37,090 bases of DNA from a virus. The position numbers were made by a program, and so were the translations under genes. How positions within the stretch are numbered: position 1 is the stretch's first letter; each line of letters opens with the position of its first letter. Where the stretch lies: IMG/VR virus record IMGVR_UViG_3300045961_000011, positions 1 through 37,090 of that record, one strand, 5' to 3'. Shown one piece after another: positions 28,239 through 37,090 of this stretch. The notes under the pieces were generated by a model, which saw nothing but the letters and a program-made list of their open reading frames with translations, was not told the DNA's origin and ran no database searches.

Positions 28239-28270
28239 AAAAAAGAAAAGGGGCCGAAGCCCCTTTTCTT
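28239..28270 (-). terminator. Intrinsic terminator after major capsid gene
   Basis: A perfect 12-base-pair stem (28243-28254 with 28259-28270) closes on a four-base loop, read CTTCGG across the loop on the minus strand, the very stable UUCG tetraloop. Six T follow on the minus strand (28244-28239, two of them in the stem). It begins six bases after the capsid stop. This is a textbook rho-independent signal, placed to set capsid mRNA apart from the downstream genes. Confidence 0.88.
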
Positions 28271-29871: not shown

Positions 29872-30321
29872 TTAGGTTCCTCTACCGAAAGTGACCTTCG
29901 TTTTGCGCTCGTTGAAGAGCGGCATACGTGGATCATTTTCGCGCATGAGACTATGGTCAACCGACTGAATCTGAGCACTTGCTTCCTGACGGAAGAAGTC
30001 ATTTCGGTCTTCGACCAACTCTTTGGGTGCTTTGCACAGCAGCAGGCCACCAATCAGAATGTTGTCTTTGAAGCGGTCATTTTCGATGCCAGCCACAAAG
30101 ATTTCCGGGTGATCCGATGCTTTGACGGGCTCCCAGCCCTCGCGGAGTTTGAGGGACACGTTCATGGGGTCAGACTCGCCGCGAGTGCTGACGCGAACCC
30201 AGTGGAATTCATAGCCCTCCTCGGGGTGAGGAGTAGGCAGCGTATCTGGACGAATCCAGTTGCGCTTGCGGGCCGTTTTTTCACGGGTTTCCAGTTCTCG
30301 GTTCAGTCTGTTCTCAGCCAT
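29872..30321 (-). CDS. Conserved virion-region protein (149 aa)
   Basis: The protein is charged and begins MAENRLNRELETREKTARKR, then NWIRPDTLPTPHPEEGYEFH. It has VSLKLREGWEPVKASDHPEI, a central GGLLLCKAPKELVEDRNDFF helix and a C-terminal ERKTKVTFGRGT. It recurs between the scaffold and capsid genes of many environmental phages. It overlaps the scaffold stop by 8 bases, with GAGGAAAC before the ATG. It may help capsid assembly. The function is not established. Confidence 0.72.
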   Translation of the reverse strand: MAENRLNRELETREKTARKRNWIRPDTLPTPHPEEGYEFHWVRVSTRGESDPMNVSLKLREGWEPVKASDHPEIFVAGIENDRFKDNILIGGLLLCKAPKELVEDRNDFFRQEASAQIQSVDHSLMRENDPRMPLFNERKTKVTFGRGT

Positions 30322-31360
30322 TTTGTTTCCTCATTTCCATAGCAACCTGTTTGGCGTATTCTTCCAGCGGCACACCAAGCCGTTTGGCCAATGCCACCTG
30401 CGTTTGCGTCAGCACGATCTTTTTGGGCGCAGTGCTACGTGTTGCTGGTGCCACGACGTTCGTCTTTCGACGAGGCTTCGTTTCCTCTGGTTCATCATCC
30501 TCGTCAGCTTCAAACTGATCGGGGAAGACTTGTCGCATACGAGAGTTGATCTTCTCGTAGTACTCATCTGAGCGAGGGTTTACACCCTGTTTGACCAATT
30601 TCTGATGCAACCCCAACGCGAAACTGGTCATCTCATCATCAGACCCAAACCATGAATTGTCTTGTTGCCATTTCACGGCCCGGTCATCGACTGCTGGGGC
30701 GGTTACCTGAGTTTGTACATCAGTTTCAGACTCTTGTAAAGCGGGTAGTTTGAGATTGTTTACTCGCTCCGACTTCATTTTTGCAGCAGTCAGTTCTTCC
30801 TGCGCTGCAACAACGGCGTCTGATTCACCCGCATCATAGGCTTGTTTGAACTTGGACTTGGCCTCCTCCAACTCGCGCTCGGCCATCTTCTTGGCCTGCT
30901 CCAGCATCGCCTGTTGGTTCTGCCCCACGGTGCCCTTGAGTTTCTTGTTCTCCTCAAGCAGGCGTGCGGTCATGGCCTCCAGTTCGGCTTTCTCACGTGC
31001 GGCTTGCTCGGCGGCGCGGCGCTGGTCGTGATAGCCCTTGCTGAAGTGCTGGAGACGCTTCTTGACCTTCTCCGAGTAGGACTCCAACTCGTCGTCAGTC
31101 AGTTCGTCAGGGGGTGTCGAGGGCTTCTTGCCCCGGTCTTTCTTGGGGGTGTCGTCCACCACCTCAATGTCGAGGTCATCCTCGTCGTCCTTGGCCTTGG
31201 GCGACGCTTTCTTGTCGTCCTTGGTGTCAGGCACGTCAGCGAAGGGGTCACGGCGACCGTCGATGACGATTTCGGCGGAGCCGTCCTCTTTCATCTTGAT
31301 GTCTTTGCTCGTGTCCCGTTCGGGATCGGGGAACTCAAACGATACTTTTTCCATGGGCAT
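30314..31360 (-). CDS. Capsid scaffolding protein (348 aa)
   Basis: The ATG at 31360 is chosen because GGAAGGAG lies eight bases upstream, inside the last codons of the Tad2-like gene; the longer frame from 31456 would overlap that gene. The N-terminal third is Asp/Lys-rich and disordered (DDEDDLDIEVVDD). The middle is a long coiled coil (about 115-205, KAELEAMTARLLEENKKLKG). The C-terminus ends KRLGVPLEEYAKQVAMEMRK, a capsid-binding-type helix. Length and charge fit scaffolds. It lies upstream of decoration and capsid genes. It is not seen to carry a protease domain. Confidence 0.82.
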   Translation of the reverse strand: MPMEKVSFEFPDPERDTSKDIKMKEDGSAEIVIDGRRDPFADVPDTKDDKKASPKAKDDEDDLDIEVVDDTPKKDRGKKPSTPPDELTDDELESYSEKVKKRLQHFSKGYHDQRRAAEQAAREKAELEAMTARLLEENKKLKGTVGQNQQAMLEQAKKMAERELEEAKSKFKQAYDAGESDAVVAAQEELTAAKMKSERVNNLKLPALQESETDVQTQVTAPAVDDRAVKWQQDNSWFGSDDEMTSFALGLHQKLVKQGVNPRSDEYYEKINSRMRQVFPDQFEADEDDEPEETKPRRKTNVVAPATRSTAPKKIVLTQTQVALAKRLGVPLEEYAKQVAMEMRKQNG

Positions 31361-31362
31361 GA

Positions 31363-31659
31363 TCAGCACTCCTTCCAGTCGTCTGCGAGCATGTCGCTCT
31401 GCGACGCAAGCCAACCGGGCAGGTATGCCTGACGGCCATGGGCGTTCACAGTCCACATGTCAATATGGGGCAAGATTTCCATCTCACTCAACCCCCGCGA
31501 TTCAAGGAATTCGGCGTTGATCGGGCTGTTGGGGCGCAGGTTCTCTTTGGACACGGTGTAGCCACCGGCCAGCACGAGGAACATGCCTTTGCCATTCCAG
31601 CCCTCACGGGCCACTTTTTTGCCAGCCTTCAAGGCGGCGATTGCATCTCCGAAGTTCAT
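31363..31659 (-). CDS. tad2: DUF2829 / Tad2-family protein (anti-Thoeris type, 98 aa)
   Basis: The ATG at 31659 follows AAGGAG six bases upstream; the longer frame from 31725 would run into the GroES gene. The product has the full family signature: MNFGDAIAALKAGKKVAREG, then WNGKGMFLVL (21-30), and a C-terminal PGWLASQSDMLADDWKE (81-97). Proteins of this family (Thoeris anti-defence 2) bind and sequester signalling nucleotides that activate Thoeris, and some also bind CBASS cyclic dinucleotides. Length is normal. The last codons (AAG GAG) contain the Shine-Dalgarno for the scaffold gene, so its translation is tied to morphogenesis. The family assignment is firm; anti-defence activity in this phage is not shown. 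Confidence 0.85.
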   Translation of the reverse strand: MNFGDAIAALKAGKKVAREGWNGKGMFLVLAGGYTVSKENLRPNSPINAEFLESRGLSEMEILPHIDMWTVNAHGRQAYLPGWLASQSDMLADDWKEC

Positions 31660-31669
31660 CAGAGTCTCC

Positions 31670-32053
31670 TTACGCACGCGTGATGCCACGCGGATCGGCC
31701 ACGACTGCTTCGATGGAGTCGTCATTCATCAGGCGGTATTCCACGCCATTGACCCGGATGCGCGTGCCAGAGTTGGCTCGGAACACCACAAAGTCACCTT
31801 GCTTGCACCAAGGGCCGTTGGGGAAACGCTCCTTGTCGGCATAGGCTTGTTCGCCCATATCGAGCACCACCCCAGTCACAGTCATCAACTGCTCCTCGTA
31901 CATGGTTCGCTCGGATTTCACGATACCCATCGAGTTGAAGGTCTCTTCAATCTGGGGCAGCGCGATCAGCAACCGATACCCGACAGGCTTTGGCATCTGC
32001 GCCTCGATTTCAGCCTCGGTCACGGCGGTAGTTTCTTCAGTCATCGTCATCAT
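31670..32053 (-). CDS. GroES-like co-chaperonin (127 aa)
   Basis: The Cpn10 fold pattern is visible: KPVGYRLLIALPQIEE at about 22-36 (first beta strands), a mobile-loop-like segment (about 38-58, FNSMGIVKSERTMYEEQ), the GVVLDMGEQ hinge (61-69), WCKQGDFVVFRANSGTRIRV (82-101) and a closing YRLMNDDSIEAVV. Bacterial GroES is about 97 residues; the extra residues are an N-terminal extension of about 20 and a C-terminal PRGITRA. It would pair with host GroEL to fold capsid or other phage proteins, as phage T4 gp31 does. Position between portal and scaffold supports this. The start is uncertain among the ATGs at 32053, 32050 and 32044. Confidence 0.85.
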   Translation of the reverse strand: MMTMTEETTAVTEAEIEAQMPKPVGYRLLIALPQIEETFNSMGIVKSERTMYEEQLMTVTGVVLDMGEQAYADKERFPNGPWCKQGDFVVFRANSGTRIRVNGVEYRLMNDDSIEAVVADPRGITRA

Positions 32054-32237
32054 CTTTCATTTGGGAACGCAAAAGGTCTTTGGTGGTTTCAATGGCGAGT
32101 TGGAGACCTCGAATCCGACCCACCACCTCCCGGTATTCGTCGAATGACTTGCATCCTCCGTTCACCAGAAACTGGGACGAGGAGGCCACTTCCTCCTCGT
32201 ATTTCTCAATCAGCACGTCAAAGACGGTTTTGGCCAT
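32037..32237 (-). CDS. Small portal-adjacent protein (66 aa)
   Basis: The protein is a single helical, charged chain beginning MAKTVFDVLIEKYEEEVASS and ending in a run of Asp (DDDDD). It overlaps the co-chaperonin start by 17 bases. AAGGAG lies before the ATG. A short helical gene directly after the portal is common in environmental phages. It may assist portal or packaging assembly. The function is unknown. Confidence 0.68.
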   Translation of the reverse strand: MAKTVFDVLIEKYEEEVASSSQFLVNGGCKSFDEYREVVGRIRGLQLAIETTKDLLRSQMKDDDDD

Positions 32238-32240
32238 GGA

Positions 32241-34691
32241 TTACTCCTTGTTGCCGCTGGCTGGCGGCTTTGGTTGGCCTTTCGGTGCGGCGAGCACCTT
32301 CAGGGCATCGAGTCGCAGGCGTTCTGCGGACTGGCGATCTTGTGAGGAGACGCGGTTCTTCTCGTTATCGACCGTGGCCATGGTGCGCATGGCTTCAAGT
32401 TTCAGTTTCTCGGACGCGATCTGTGCGTCGGTCTGATCCTTCTGGGCCTTGCGAGTGACCTCCATCTCCTGCACCTTGACCTTGGACTGCTCCAACTGGA
32501 ACAGCGGGTCGGCTTGCTGCTGCTGGGCCTGCTGTTGTGCGGCCTGCTGCTGGTGAGCCTGTGCAACCTGCTTGCCTGCATCTGCGATGAGGCGAGCCAG
32601 TTGAACCTCCATGTCCTCTGGCAATTCCTCGTCGGGCGGGGGCAACGTGACGCCCAGACGCTCTTCGATCTGCTTGCGGTAGGAGAAGCCCAAGTGCTCG
32701 GCGATGTGCGCTTGCAGGCTGGCCATGATCTGCTGGGCCATCGGGTTCTGACCAATGCTGGCAGCGATCATCGGGTCTTGCATGAACGACTGGTGCGCGG
32801 CGATGTGCGCCTCGTGATCTTGATAGATGAATGCCTTGAGCGGTTTACCCACCAGTGCTGACATGTTCTCAGACACGGGGTCACGTGGCTTCTGATCCTC
32901 GCTCGTTGGGACGATCTTGTCGGCGTTTTTGACGCCCAGCGTCTCGATCATCTGGCGGTGCAGGTACGGCAGATCGTAAATCTGCGGGGCGCTCTGGGCC
33001 ATCTGGAACACCGCTTGGTACTGCACCACGCGCTGCGCCATCGTGCTGGCGTTCGGATCGCTCACGGGGATCACGTCCACCATGGCGTAGTCGGCCTGCC
33101 GCGCCCGGGTGTGTCCGGTGTCAGGCTCGTACTGGTACTCCTCGGGGGCGTAGTCAGCGATGATGGCCTTCAGGAGTTTGAACTCCTGCTTCATGGCAAA
33201 GTGCACACGGCTCTGGACAGCGGCCATGGGCTTGAGCGTGCGCTCCAGCAGGGCCAGCGTGGTGCCCACAGGAGCCTGCGCGGACATGTCCGAGATGTTC
33301 ATGTCGGAGATCGCGCCGAGGCGGCGACCTTCTTCCGTGATCCGCTGGAGCAGGGCCAGCAGAGTCTGGCTTGGCTCTTTGTACGGCAGGGTCATGATGT
33401 TGTCTTTGACCGTGCCCGATGGCACGTCAACATCACGGAACTCGCCCGGCTGGATCGGTGTGTCGTCACCCTTGATGCGCAGACCTCGGGTCTTCAGGCC
33501 ACCCGGCAGGTTGCTCAGGGTGCCAGCGTCCACCAACTGGCGAATGATCGAGGTGCCAGCGCGGGCGTACCCGCCGATGATGTGGATCAGGCCAAGGCCA
33601 TAGAAGCCAAAGCCCGGGACGTAGACGTAGTGCACGAAGTGGTTGCGCTTGAGCATGAGGGGGTCTTCCTCATCCCAGTTGCGGCGCACGGCCAGCACCT
33701 TGCCGGTGCCTTTGTCGATGGTCACCACGTACGGCTTGGCGAGGTCATTCTCCTCGTCATCCACGCCGTCGATGCACAGGTTTGCGTGCACTTCCAGCAG
33801 GGCGTAGCGGTCGTCATCTTGCAGGGTGAAGCCACCCTCCTCGGCCTTTTTCTTCTCGATGTCCGTGTGGAACTGGAGCGGTTCGCCCAGATCGCACTCG
33901 CGGTAGAAGCCTGCATCCATCAGGCGTTCGAGTTCATTCTTGGTCTTGCGCATCACGTGGGTGACACGCTCGGCTTGCTCGATGTGGCTGGTGCCGTAAG
34001 GCACGATGACATCTTCTGCTGGCAGGTAGATCGAGACTTGCCGTCCGATGTTCGGATCGAAGTACACCTTCTTGAACGCAGAGCCTGCAAGGCCCAGCGA
34101 GTAGAGCATGCGCTCGTGCTCGGAGCGGTACTCCACCATGCGCTCGGTGACCTGATAGTTCATGTCATCGCGCACGCGCTCGGCGGCTTCTTCCTTCTCC
34201 TTGGTGACCTTGCCCAGAATCTTTGTCTTCACGGGCCCGGCAGCAGGGAATGTCTCGCTCATGGTCTCGGCTTGGAAGCGGATCGCCGCCTCGGCCAGCA
34301 CGGTGGAGAACACGCCACACGCGTCGTCCCACGGCTCGGTGCGCTCCTCGTACTTGAAGCCCAGCACTTCGAGGCCCTTGACGAATGTGTCGGCCCACTC
34401 CTTGCGTGCTGTGATGTCAGCCTCCACGAGGTCTGTCAGATCAGACGCGAGTTTTTGCAGTGCGCCCTCATCCATGAACTCAGCGAGGTTGTCACCAAAC
34501 TCGCCTTCCTCGTCGTCCTCGGATGACCCTTCGAGGTTGACCTCGACAGTGCCGTCAGGGTTCTCGATGATCTCGACTTCGCCAAGGCCCGGGGCCTCGA
34601 TCTCGACCTCGACACTCTCTATGTCCTCGGCCTCTTCGTCCAGCCCTTTCGGCGCTTGGTACAACCCGGGAGTCATGCTGCTCGTTGCCAT
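32241..34691 (-). CDS. Portal protein (816 aa)
   Basis: I chose the ATG at 34691, with AAAGGA six bases upstream; the TTG two codons earlier is less likely. A very acidic N-terminal ~70 residues precede the portal core, DEGALQKLASDLTDLVEADI and SAFKKVYFDPNIGRQVSIYL. It continues GLGLIHIIGGYARAGTSIIR, SQTLLALLQRITEEGRRLGA and ALLERTLKPMAAVQSRVHFA, features of large podovirus-type portals. The C-terminal ~130 residues are Gln-rich, coiled-coil (AHQQQAAQQQAQQQQADPLF) and basic, like the barrel of P22. Length fits portals of this group. It forms the DNA entry vertex. It follows the large terminase by 11 bases. Confidence 0.85.
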   Translation of the reverse strand: MATSSMTPGLYQAPKGLDEEAEDIESVEVEIEAPGLGEVEIIENPDGTVEVNLEGSSEDDEEGEFGDNLAEFMDEGALQKLASDLTDLVEADITARKEWADTFVKGLEVLGFKYEERTEPWDDACGVFSTVLAEAAIRFQAETMSETFPAAGPVKTKILGKVTKEKEEAAERVRDDMNYQVTERMVEYRSEHERMLYSLGLAGSAFKKVYFDPNIGRQVSIYLPAEDVIVPYGTSHIEQAERVTHVMRKTKNELERLMDAGFYRECDLGEPLQFHTDIEKKKAEEGGFTLQDDDRYALLEVHANLCIDGVDDEENDLAKPYVVTIDKGTGKVLAVRRNWDEEDPLMLKRNHFVHYVYVPGFGFYGLGLIHIIGGYARAGTSIIRQLVDAGTLSNLPGGLKTRGLRIKGDDTPIQPGEFRDVDVPSGTVKDNIMTLPYKEPSQTLLALLQRITEEGRRLGAISDMNISDMSAQAPVGTTLALLERTLKPMAAVQSRVHFAMKQEFKLLKAIIADYAPEEYQYEPDTGHTRARQADYAMVDVIPVSDPNASTMAQRVVQYQAVFQMAQSAPQIYDLPYLHRQMIETLGVKNADKIVPTSEDQKPRDPVSENMSALVGKPLKAFIYQDHEAHIAAHQSFMQDPMIAASIGQNPMAQQIMASLQAHIAEHLGFSYRKQIEERLGVTLPPPDEELPEDMEVQLARLIADAGKQVAQAHQQQAAQQQAQQQQADPLFQLEQSKVKVQEMEVTRKAQKDQTDAQIASEKLKLEAMRTMATVDNEKNRVSSQDRQSAERLRLDALKVLAAPKGQPKPPASGNKE

Positions 34692-34702
34692 GTTCAATCC
34701 TT

Positions 34703-36304
34703 TCAGTAGTAGCGGTTTTTGCTACGCGATTTGAAGTACCTGACCTCATCGGGCTCGTCACTCGGGAGCCGGATAAAGCCGCCTTGGCGGAACCGCATGA
34801 GTGCCATCACCGTAGCGTCAACCAAGTCATCGTGGGCCATGAACGGAAATCCTGCGATCTCCTCGACGACTTCCTCTGCCCAGCGGGTCTGCGGAACCCA
34901 GCATATACCCGACCTCACGATGTCCGCCACAGAGTTTAACCGTGCTAACTTGTCACCGCTACCTCTATGTGGTGTGTATTCACCCACAGGGATGCCCATG
35001 CGTCGCAATTCTTGATAGAGCGCAGTGCCTGATGACTTCTTTTCCACGATGAACGCGTCAGGCTCCCACTCACGATACTCCTCTTGCGCCAAGGTCTTGA
35101 GTTCGGGGAACTCCAGCCGCTTCTTGATGCTGTTGAGCAGGATGATGTTGTAGGCGTTGGCACCCGGCCCCTCGCGCTCCTCATTGAAGAACACGCCCCA
35201 CGTGGTGATGGCTGTGTAATCGGCCCGGTTGTGGCTCTCGGCTGCGGCGTCCAGCGTCATGATGACGTACTCGCACGATGGCGGGTCTTCCTTTGTCCAC
35301 TCGTTCCACCACTCGCGCTTGACGACGCTGGCCTCTTCCGACGTGGGGTTCTGCTGGTACTGCGCGTTCCACTGGAACACAGGCATGGACGCCTTGGTGC
35401 GGTACAGCGCATCGAGGTTGAAGAACTCGGGCCACAGGGGCTTCTCGATCTTCTTCTTGACGCCATCGACTTCTCGCTCGACCTCAATGATGGCGGGGAA
35501 CTCCACCACCTCATACTGGTCAGCCTTGTCGTTCTGGGACATGTCCCGGGTCACACGCCCAGTCAGGTCATCCTGATGCCACCGTGTTTGCACGATGGCC
35601 ACACGTCCACCGGGCATCAAACGCGTGCGGGCACCGTAGGTGAACCACTCGTATGCCTTCTCGAACACGTCAAAGTTGCCGTTGATGATGTCCTGCTCGT
35701 TGTGTGGGTCGTCCACCAGCAGCAAGTCAGCGCCTCGCCCGGCCAAGGCAGAGCCCACGCCGCAGGCAAAGTACTCGCCGCCCACGCTGGTGTTCCAGCG
35801 CCCGGCAGACTTGGAGTCCGACGCAAGGCCCACATTGGGGAAGACCTCTTTGTACGCATCGGAGTCGATGATGTTTCGCACCTTGCGACCAAAGTCCACG
35901 GCGAGGTCTGTGGTGTGGGACACCATCAGCACCTTCTTGTTGGGGTAACGTCCTATGAACCACGCTGGGAAGTAAATGGAAACCAACTGTGATTTGCCAT
36001 GGCGCGGTGGCATGTTCACGCACACCCGGTCGCTTTCGCCCTTGGCGATTGACATCAGCAGCGTGGCCAAGATGCGGTGGTGGCGTCCGACCTTGTAGTC
36101 GGGCTGCATGTGCTTGCAGAACTCAATCAGATCGTCGTAGCACGCCTTGGCCAACTTGCGAGCATTGAGCACATCGGCGATTTTCTCGATCTCGACCTGC
36201 TCCTCTGGCGTGTAGGAGTCGAGGTTGTCCAGCATCAATTGGATTTCCTCCTCCGTGAAGTCCAGAAGCAGGCTATCGACGGTGGATTCAGTACCCTGAC
36301 TCAC
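34703..36304 (-). CDS. terL: Terminase large subunit (ATPase and nuclease, 533 aa)
   Basis: Starts at a GTG in a GTGA overlap with the small-terminase stop. ATPase: Walker A-type MPPRHGKS at 98-105, Walker B LLLVDD at 194-199 and the coupling motif QTRWH at 239-243. RNase-H-like nuclease: D352 (VIMTLDAAAE), E421 (AFIVEKKSSG) and the D492/D493/D496 cluster (HDDLVDAT). The full set of catalytic residues is present, so it should be active. It drives DNA into the prohead through the portal and cuts the concatemer. It is a normal 533-residue phage terminase. Confidence 0.93.
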   Translation of the reverse strand: MSQGTESTVDSLLLDFTEEEIQLMLDNLDSYTPEEQVEIEKIADVLNARKLAKACYDDLIEFCKHMQPDYKVGRHHRILATLLMSIAKGESDRVCVNMPPRHGKSQLVSIYFPAWFIGRYPNKKVLMVSHTTDLAVDFGRKVRNIIDSDAYKEVFPNVGLASDSKSAGRWNTSVGGEYFACGVGSALAGRGADLLLVDDPHNEQDIINGNFDVFEKAYEWFTYGARTRLMPGGRVAIVQTRWHQDDLTGRVTRDMSQNDKADQYEVVEFPAIIEVEREVDGVKKKIEKPLWPEFFNLDALYRTKASMPVFQWNAQYQQNPTSEEASVVKREWWNEWTKEDPPSCEYVIMTLDAAAESHNRADYTAITTWGVFFNEEREGPGANAYNIILLNSIKKRLEFPELKTLAQEEYREWEPDAFIVEKKSSGTALYQELRRMGIPVGEYTPHRGSGDKLARLNSVADIVRSGICWVPQTRWAEEVVEEIAGFPFMAHDDLVDATVMALMRFRQGGFIRLPSDEPDEVRYFKSRSKNRYY

Positions 36305-37056
36305 TGCACCGGGCCCCCATCTGGGTCTTCAGTGTGACTGTCTGGGCCATCGGACTCGATGGCGGGTTCTGGCTCGTAATACGACCCCGTTTTTGCAGTT
36401 TTCTCGCAAATTTCCGGTTTATTTTCGTGTTCCGACACGCCAAGCGTCGAATTTTCGACGCTCAGGCCCAGTTCAGCATCAACGTCTATGATCTCACCAC
36501 CCATTTCAATGGCGGGCGAGTGGTTCGACTCCTCTCCAGCATCGCGCCGGATAAGACGTTGCAGTTTGGCCCGCAACTTTTCCTTCAACTCGTCCGTGGT
36601 CTGGTGCGTGATCGTCACTTCCTGCTTCTCGGAGAACAGCCCCACGTCGGAGTGCTTGCCCAGCAGTTCCAATGCACGGATTCTGATGCGCGGATCGGGG
36701 TTTCGGGACTCTTCGAGCAGCCTATTTGTCACCAAATGACGCATTTCGACAGCATGCGTGACCACTGCACGACCATATTCGTCGAGGTAGTCGCGGATGT
36801 TGATCAGCGAAGCCGGGGTGAGGGCTGCGGCACGCACGTGGTTGGTGAGTTTGGAGGTGCGCTCGGGGTCTTCAGCGTACGCCGCAGTCAATGCAGCGGC
36901 TGTTTCCTTGTCGCCGGGGGTGGGCTCGATGTCCAGCCCATGCTTTTCCAGCAGCAACGCCGAGCGGCATGCTGCCTCGGCCCGCTCTCGCAGGTCGATG
37001 TATGAGATGTCAGGCGTGATTTCCACCCCCAACTCAGGCATGAGTTCAATTGTCAT
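36301..37056 (-). CDS. Terminase small subunit-like DNA-binding protein
   Basis: The gene lies directly upstream of terL, overlapping by GTGA. The N-terminal region is helical (YIDLRERAEAACRSALLLEK). A central SLINIRDYLDEYGRAVVTHA, then VEMRHLVTNRLLEESRNPDP and RIRIRALELLGKHSDVGLFS are the helical pattern of terminase small subunits that recognise pac/cos DNA. The C-terminus (about 170-250) is acidic and disordered. The ATG at 37056 is used; a GTG at 37086 is also in frame and the reading frame stays open to the window edge, so the true start may lie upstream. Confidence 0.72.
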   Translation of the reverse strand: MTIELMPELGVEITPDISYIDLRERAEAACRSALLLEKHGLDIEPTPGDKETAAALTAAYAEDPERTSKLTNHVRAAALTPASLINIRDYLDEYGRAVVTHAVEMRHLVTNRLLEESRNPDPRIRIRALELLGKHSDVGLFSEKQEVTITHQTTDELKEKLRAKLQRLIRRDAGEESNHSPAIEMGGEIIDVDAELGLSVENSTLGVSEHENKPEICEKTAKTGSYYEPEPAIESDGPDSHTEDPDGGPVQ

Positions 37057-37090
37057 GTTCGCAAGTCCATATAGACCGATGTGCACAGTG

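Follow-up and report, generated by a model that had tools for sequence, protein, structure and literature searches.

The 37,090-nucleotide viral DNA analyzed here (the window) carries a gene for a predicted Tad2 sponge of nucleotide immune signals between the genes for a GroES-type co-chaperonin and a putative scaffold. At a probability of about 0.74, this gene was gained as a precise cassette within the head operon, at a recurrent site for counter-signaling genes (the GroES/scaffold slot). The observations behind this reading are the family, fold, and invariant residues of the protein, the in-frame placement of its gene with overlapping ribosome sites, a near-isogenic relative in which the site is empty, and the recurrent occupation of the site by four families of nucleotide-signal antagonists. 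The Tad2 protein itself is of an already known kind; the slot, as far as could be found, has not been described so far, since no published description of it was found in openly licensed full texts. The capsid operon seems to hold a slot reserved for counter-defense.

Identification of a Tad2-family protein

The first-pass annotation had assigned a Tad2-like (DUF2829) gene to positions 31363–31659, and these coordinates proved exact. The open reading frame runs on the minus strand from 31659 to 31363, from ATG to TGA, and encodes 98 amino acids; no Tad2 is encoded when the interval is read on the plus strand. The two family motifs that had been noticed, REGWNGKGMF and GWLASQSDMLADDW, are both present in the product, which matches the Tad2-like profile PF11195 over positions 1–71 of 73 with a score of 84.7 bits (E = 6.5e-24; curated cut-off, 25 bits). 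Its sequence relatives in the PDB are Tad2 or AcrIIA7 entries only, the top one being SptTad2 (E = 3e-16), and a search with a profile of 63 relatives recovered the same seven sequences. All 16 columns that are invariant in the 63-member alignment are kept by the window protein (F3, A6, R18, G20, W21, N22, G23, M26, M68, W83, A85, S86, Q87, D89, D94, and W95).

Structure prediction, named as a check when the gene was annotated, agreed with the family assignment. The AlphaFold (AF2) monomer model has a pLDDT of 95.4, its top 24 Foldseek matches are Tad2/AcrIIA7 throughout, and its VIA Z scores to solved Tad2 proteins are 10.4–12.4 (12.4 for SptTad2 8wjd, 11.9 for HgmTad2, 11.2 for ModTad2, and 10.9 for SPO1 Tad2), compared with 5.1 for the next unrelated chain. 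A helix-bearing insertion between β2 and β5 (residues about 38–58) is visible in the model, and in this insertion and in its length the protein is like SptTad2 and HgmTad2. From these results, we conclude that the window protein is a member of the Tad2 family with the Tad2 fold. Its dN/dS relative to the L002 homologue is ∼0.04, which shows that the reading frame is not a chance one and that the protein is held under purifying selection. The GC content is 57.9% for tad2, 56.8% for the GroES gene, and 58.4% for the whole window.

Tad2 proteins are homotetramers in which the β2–β5 insertion is tied to the binding of cyclic dinucleotides (cGG) and separate inter-protomer pockets are tied to the binding of gcADPR (PMC12043709). 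By analogy, the window protein is predicted to form a Tad2-type tetramer and to bind the cyclic ADP-ribose signals of Thoeris. Its β2–β5 insertion is of the longer type found in SptTad2 and HgmTad2, so cyclic dinucleotides such as cGG or 3'3'-cGAMP may be further ligands, which would give the protein a dual specificity.

Organization of the head operon

On the minus strand, the genes of the operon follow the order probable terminase small subunit, terminase large subunit, portal, a 66-aa protein, GroES, Tad2, putative scaffold, a 149-aa protein, a 218-aa protein, and major capsid protein (MCP) (Table 1). The earlier placement of tad2 between a co-chaperonin and a scaffold gene therefore stands, with GroES (PF00166) on its 5' side and the putative scaffold on its 3' side. 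The latter name reflects position, as the gene sits upstream of the MCP gene; its product has no family in Pfam, and its match in PHROG is to the uncharacterized phrog_28737 only. The same order of head genes, without Tad2, is found in Planktothrix phage Pag-Yong1 and phage DSL-LC04 and, more distantly, in Alcaligenes phage QDWS535. The phage that carries the window is water-dwelling.

Table 1. Features of the window's head operon, in minus-strand order
Feature	Position	Strand	Evidence or remark
Probable terminase small subunit	36301..37086	-	phrog_51, weak
Terminase large subunit	34703..36304	-	phrog_38, 353 bits; PF17289
Portal protein	32241..34697	-	phrog_1216, 97.5 bits
Conserved small protein, 66 aa, between portal and GroES	32037..32237	-	Homologue in most lineage A relatives
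GroES-type co-chaperonin, 127 aa	31670..32053	-	PF00166, 27.5 bits (cut-off 21.1); phrog_3188
Tad2 Shine-Dalgarno AAGGAG	31666..31671	-	Overlaps GroES stop (TAAGGAG); cassette 5' boundary
Tad2-family gene, 98 aa, predicted to encode a sponge of nucleotide immune signals	31363..31659	-	PF11195, AF2 model, VIA, dN/dS
Scaffold-gene Shine-Dalgarno AAGGAG	31369..31374	-	Within Tad2 Lys-Glu codons, W-K-E-C tail
Putative scaffold gene, about 348–350 aa, ATG at 31360	30314..31360	-	phrog_28737, uncharacterized
Conserved head-module protein, 149 aa	29872..30321	-	phrog_36003
Conserved head-module protein, 218 aa	29197..29853	-	phrog_37556
MCP, 302 aa	28277..29185	-	phrog_371; PF10124; annotated MCP of Pag-Yong1 73% identical

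Both junctions of tad2 combine coding sequence with a ribosome site. The GroES gene ends in ...GCG-TAA, which overlaps the GGAG of the Tad2 site, and the distance from this stop to the Tad2 ATG is 10 nt. At its own 3' end (TGG-AAG-GAG-TGC-TGA), tad2 stops 2 nt before the scaffold ATG; as had been noticed, its last codons hold the scaffold ribosome site, so that in the junction GACTGG-AAGGAG-TGC-TGA-TC-ATG the AAGGAG is 8 nt from the scaffold ATG. The junction between GroES and Tad2 showed no promoter-like site. From this we infer that tad2 is co-transcribed with the head genes, and late timing would follow from that co-transcription. A 12-pair hairpin with a T-rich tail (28243–28270, minus strand) lies directly 3' of the MCP gene and is likely the terminator or an attenuator of the head operon.

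A near-isogenic relative has an empty site

Over the 15.6 kb that it shares with the window, relative L162 is about 97–98% identical (5.4 kb upstream at 98.0%, 10.2 kb downstream at 96.7%). Its MCP is identical to that of the window, and exactly tad2 is missing from its slot. The slot is also empty in L082, the portal of which is 90% identical. Both empty sites contain the sequence TAAGGAG-GCATACC-ATGCCC, in which the TAAGGAG that serves as the Tad2 ribosome site in the window is kept. Because the L162 junction, TAAGGAG-GCATACC-ATGCCCATGGAAAAAG, equals that of L082, the ancestral state here is the empty one, and the window gained tad2. Based on these comparisons, the window tad2 is best described as a recent in-frame cassette. 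Like a classical moron, it sits at a junction of core genes and varies in presence among close relatives; a promoter and terminator of its own and a deviating base composition, which also mark classical morons, are missing (its GC content is as in the flanks).

Survey of the GroES/scaffold slot

Slots were collected in four samplings, with Tad2, with the window's portal and capsid (lineage A), with the capsid of lineage B, and with the GroES of lineage B, and in extra samplings with Acb2 and RyR queries. Lineage B is diverged from lineage A (portal about 31% identical). The samples are similarity-based and comprise at most 80 loci per query, and many of the contigs are fragments.

Among the matches listed, lineage A contributed 123 distinct GroES/scaffold slots, 118 of them empty and 5 with a coiled-coil gene of 70 aa. 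None of these 123, sampled besides the Tad2 carriers of the lineage (the window, L002, and L003), held Tad2. In lineage B, 7 of the 63 distinct slots listed among the capsid matches and 22 of the 49 listed among the GroES matches were occupied; the latter 45% is not a population frequency because the operon that supplied the GroES query itself bears cargo. All 29 of these occupied slots contain Tad2, Acb2-hairpin (PF24729), RyR (PF02026), or PF13876 genes, either singly or as two or three in a row, such as Acb2-Tad2-PF13876 and Tad2-RyR-PF13876. Over all sources and not counting the window, there were at least 52 distinct occupied slots, of which 47 were filled with genes of the four families, 5 with the coiled coil, and 0 with other cargo. 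The cargo models behind this count were made from the first inserts found; they explained all of the later inserts from the GroES sample, and representative inserts were confirmed by Pfam. The survey rules out that the window tad2 is a one-off oddity, and the empty slots (118 of 123 in lineage A, among the matches listed) rule out that it is a conserved core head gene.

The coiled-coil family of lineage A slots (GVTSDFDWYEL...; L103:10860-11072, L111:3831-4046, L120:2763-2972, L183:5494-5706, and L207:5515-5769) has no clear match in Pfam; by its association with the slot it is a candidate counter-defense gene. A scan of genome contigs for prophage relatives returned no host, its matches being two short MAG contigs.

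Cargo families and the history of Tad2 in the slot

For each of the four families found in the slot, members are reported to sequester or degrade nucleotide immune signals. Tad2 is a sponge for gcADPR and cyclic dinucleotides, and Acb2 is one for cyclic oligonucleotides (PMC12043709); the ligand of ModTad2 is His-ADPR (9eib; PMC13299392). Phages use RyR-domain proteins to cleave or sequester 2'/3'cADPR (PMC13232231), and PF13876 (gp49/66) corresponds to Acb4, a family of CBASS sponges (PMC11722364). A PF13876 member from the slot matches Acb4 9e4w (phmmer E = 6e-4). The Acb2 assignment rests on Pfam PF24729, as phmmer against the PDB gave no chain at E 0.001 for the Acb2-like slot protein. Single genes of L399 and L409 that carried an RyR/gp49 label were counted as PF13876 only, the label being a ∼28-bit cross-match from a shared tail. 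Judged by family, the slot would mix antagonists of Thoeris and CBASS signals that belong to unrelated families.

The RyR and PF13876 genes that close the slot in lineage B share one short tail, DDFPLGKA..SGEGxCEACQ (for example L326:2878-3294, L327:4290-4757, L325:4270-4749, and L354:4369-4731), which suggests that cassettes are swapped by homologous recombination. Many Tad2 proteins have an N-terminal domain of ∼74 aa of the YIGTK...GYISWSP type (L325:3767-4285, L354:3899-4384, and L035:2934-3440), which is common to other phage proteins (phrog_9467 and phrog_872).

In a Tad2 tree with cleaned labels, the slot label requires 8 changes, at least 4 of which are forced by supported branches, indicating that Tad2 came into the slot several times. 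In a tree whose rows mixed repeat contig copies with non-slot rows, the window and L002 (lineage A) cluster with L013 (lineage B) at a support of 98/83, and the Tad2 of L003 clusters with the replication-region Tad2s of L004 and L008. These groupings suggest that Tad2 probably crossed between lineages A and B. A W-x-E tail, which supplies GGAG-type ribosome sites, ends 8 of the 10 Tad2s that abut a scaffold gene compared with 11 of the 123 elsewhere.

Other sites in the same genomes

Between scaffold and capsid, none of the three gene junctions at the loci surveyed contains an insert >150 bp. The site 3' of the MCP gene holds GIY-YIG/NUMOD3 and possible HNH-type homing endonucleases (L106:10282-11136, L183:9044-9961, and L310:7939-8598), and the site 3' of portal in some relatives holds glycosyltransferase-2, cupin/JmjC, and 2OG-Fe(II) oxygenase genes (L153:2300-3034, L160:5331-6329, and L207:2984-4141). 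On 41 long contigs, 19 of 21 matches to the four families fall in the slot (PF11195, 8/8; PF24729, 3/4; PF02026, 1/1; PF13876, 7/8), a count in which one match was scored across a contig end and 3 of the 41 contigs had been recruited by Tad2 or Acb2 queries.

The contrast that had been drawn with Tad2 genes in early or accessory regions was borne out: relatives 82–84% identical adjoin helicase or ATPase-type genes (L004 and L008), and the Tad2 genes of named phages adjoin recombination and ssDNA-binding genes. Other structural positions also carry Tad2: it is found 5' of terminase-like genes, following the capsid gene, between scaffold and the head gene that comes after it, and directly ahead of GroES (L014:2632-2931; L029:3472-3750 and L030; L063:6001-6315; L056:3683-3973; L254:176-466).

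Discussion

If tad2 is translated from the head mRNA, the sponge would be made together with the capsid proteins and, given the output of the head operon, in the large amounts that a stoichiometric sponge requires. Its most likely role would be to hold down TIR or CBASS signaling as capsid or other structural protein accumulates. Binding to the major capsid protein has been published for Thoeris sensors (PMC12578639), which makes a capsid-triggered defense plausible and a capsid-coupled dosage attractive. Because sponges act by amount, strong translation from the head operon could by itself explain the placement, and what favored the slot may be high expression or a tolerance of inserted genes, not timing. 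Early expression is common among published signal antagonists (PMC13232231, PMC11722364). The first-pass interpretation, in which a late sponge perhaps blunts a defense triggered by capsid or portal build-up, is partly supported. A broader proposal, which we regard as tentative and give somewhat less than even odds, is that the capsid operons of two or more diverged podovirus-like lineages maintain a dedicated and swappable slot immediately 5' of the scaffold and capsid genes. Sponges and signal-degrading enzymes would be made from it in time with the protein that capsid-sensing TIR/CBASS systems detect.

The strongest competitor, which we also hold to be somewhat short of probable, is that the sponge works and the GroES/scaffold junction merely tolerates an in-frame gene that brings its own ribosome site, so that the enrichment reflects common mobile antagonists recombining among themselves. 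The many other places in which Tad2 is found and the end peptide common to the RyR and PF13876 genes of lineage B fit this explanation. It is weakened by the control sites, since other tolerant sites hold different cargo and the three later junctions are never used, and by the convergence on one site of four unrelated families that the same genomes hardly carry elsewhere; we nevertheless keep it as a rival. That tad2 was co-opted for a role in the head, as an assembly factor, decoration protein, or chaperone cofactor, with its Tad2 ancestry incidental, would accord with its position beside the co-chaperonin and scaffold genes and with the strong purifying selection. This we consider most improbable: the gene is dispensable, being absent from L162, which has the same head genes, and from every other lineage A slot among the matches listed (123), and unrelated signal antagonists replace it at the site, while the family-invariant residues are all kept. 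An inhibitor of type II CRISPR-Cas, acting instead of or besides nucleotide binding, is suggested by PDB matches named AcrIIA7 or "Inhibitor of Type II CRISPR-Cas" (8kbi and 9kzr), and AcrIIA7 has its fold and family in common with the window protein. This too is improbable, as the same protein (HgmTad2) has been solved with cADPR and cGG (8kbj and 8kbk) and all other slot cargo comes from families that act on nucleotide signals.

A recurrent slot for cassettes such as the window tad2 bears on where antagonists are looked for. Searches for counter-defense genes usually concentrate on early or accessory regions, and inspecting the genes between GroES and scaffold offers a simple rule for finding new ones, which at once nominates the 70-aa coiled coil. 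If the slot is indeed dedicated and timed, this coiled coil, which in the lineage of the window occurs only there, would be a further undescribed antagonist. Whether phages time counter-defense to their own trigger, the capsid, is a question made directly testable by the natural pair of phages, about 97–98% identical, with and without tad2.

Comparison with known systems

The window protein shares with the Tad2 sponges SptTad2 (8wjd), HgmTad2 (8kbi-8kbm), ModTad2 (9eib), and SPO1 Tad2 (8sme-8smg) its PF11195 membership, a fold at Z scores of 10–12, a similar length, and the invariant motifs GWNGKGM and GWLASQxDMxxxDW. Unlike theirs, its gene is embedded in a head operon and contains the ribosome site of the next gene, and its ligand is predicted from the family.

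The anti-CRISPR region of Mu-like Pseudomonas phages described by Bondy-Denomy in 2013 is reportedly located in the head operon. Like the slot, that accessory region places counter-defense genes among core genes and varies between close relatives (PMC4378225). Its genes act on CRISPR-Cas and are typically low in GC, whereas the window has flank-like GC, no visible promoter or regulator, and cargo directed at nucleotide signals. Antagonists of nucleotide signaling are co-located, as in the slot, in the SPO1 cluster that contains Acb4 (PMC11722364), but that cluster lies among small uncharacterized genes with early activity and the slot lies in the capsid operon. In Klebsiella phage IME346 (NC_071137), a DUF2829 gene is inserted with 4-nt overlaps between TerL and DUF1073 (portal-type), an insertion into the packaging/head module as in the window; the phage group and the slot differ, and the placement is independent. 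RyDEP/RyR-domain proteins, which degrade or sequester 2'/3'cADPR (PMC13232231), have a fold unrelated to Tad2, and their family occurs in the same slot of related phages and not in the window.
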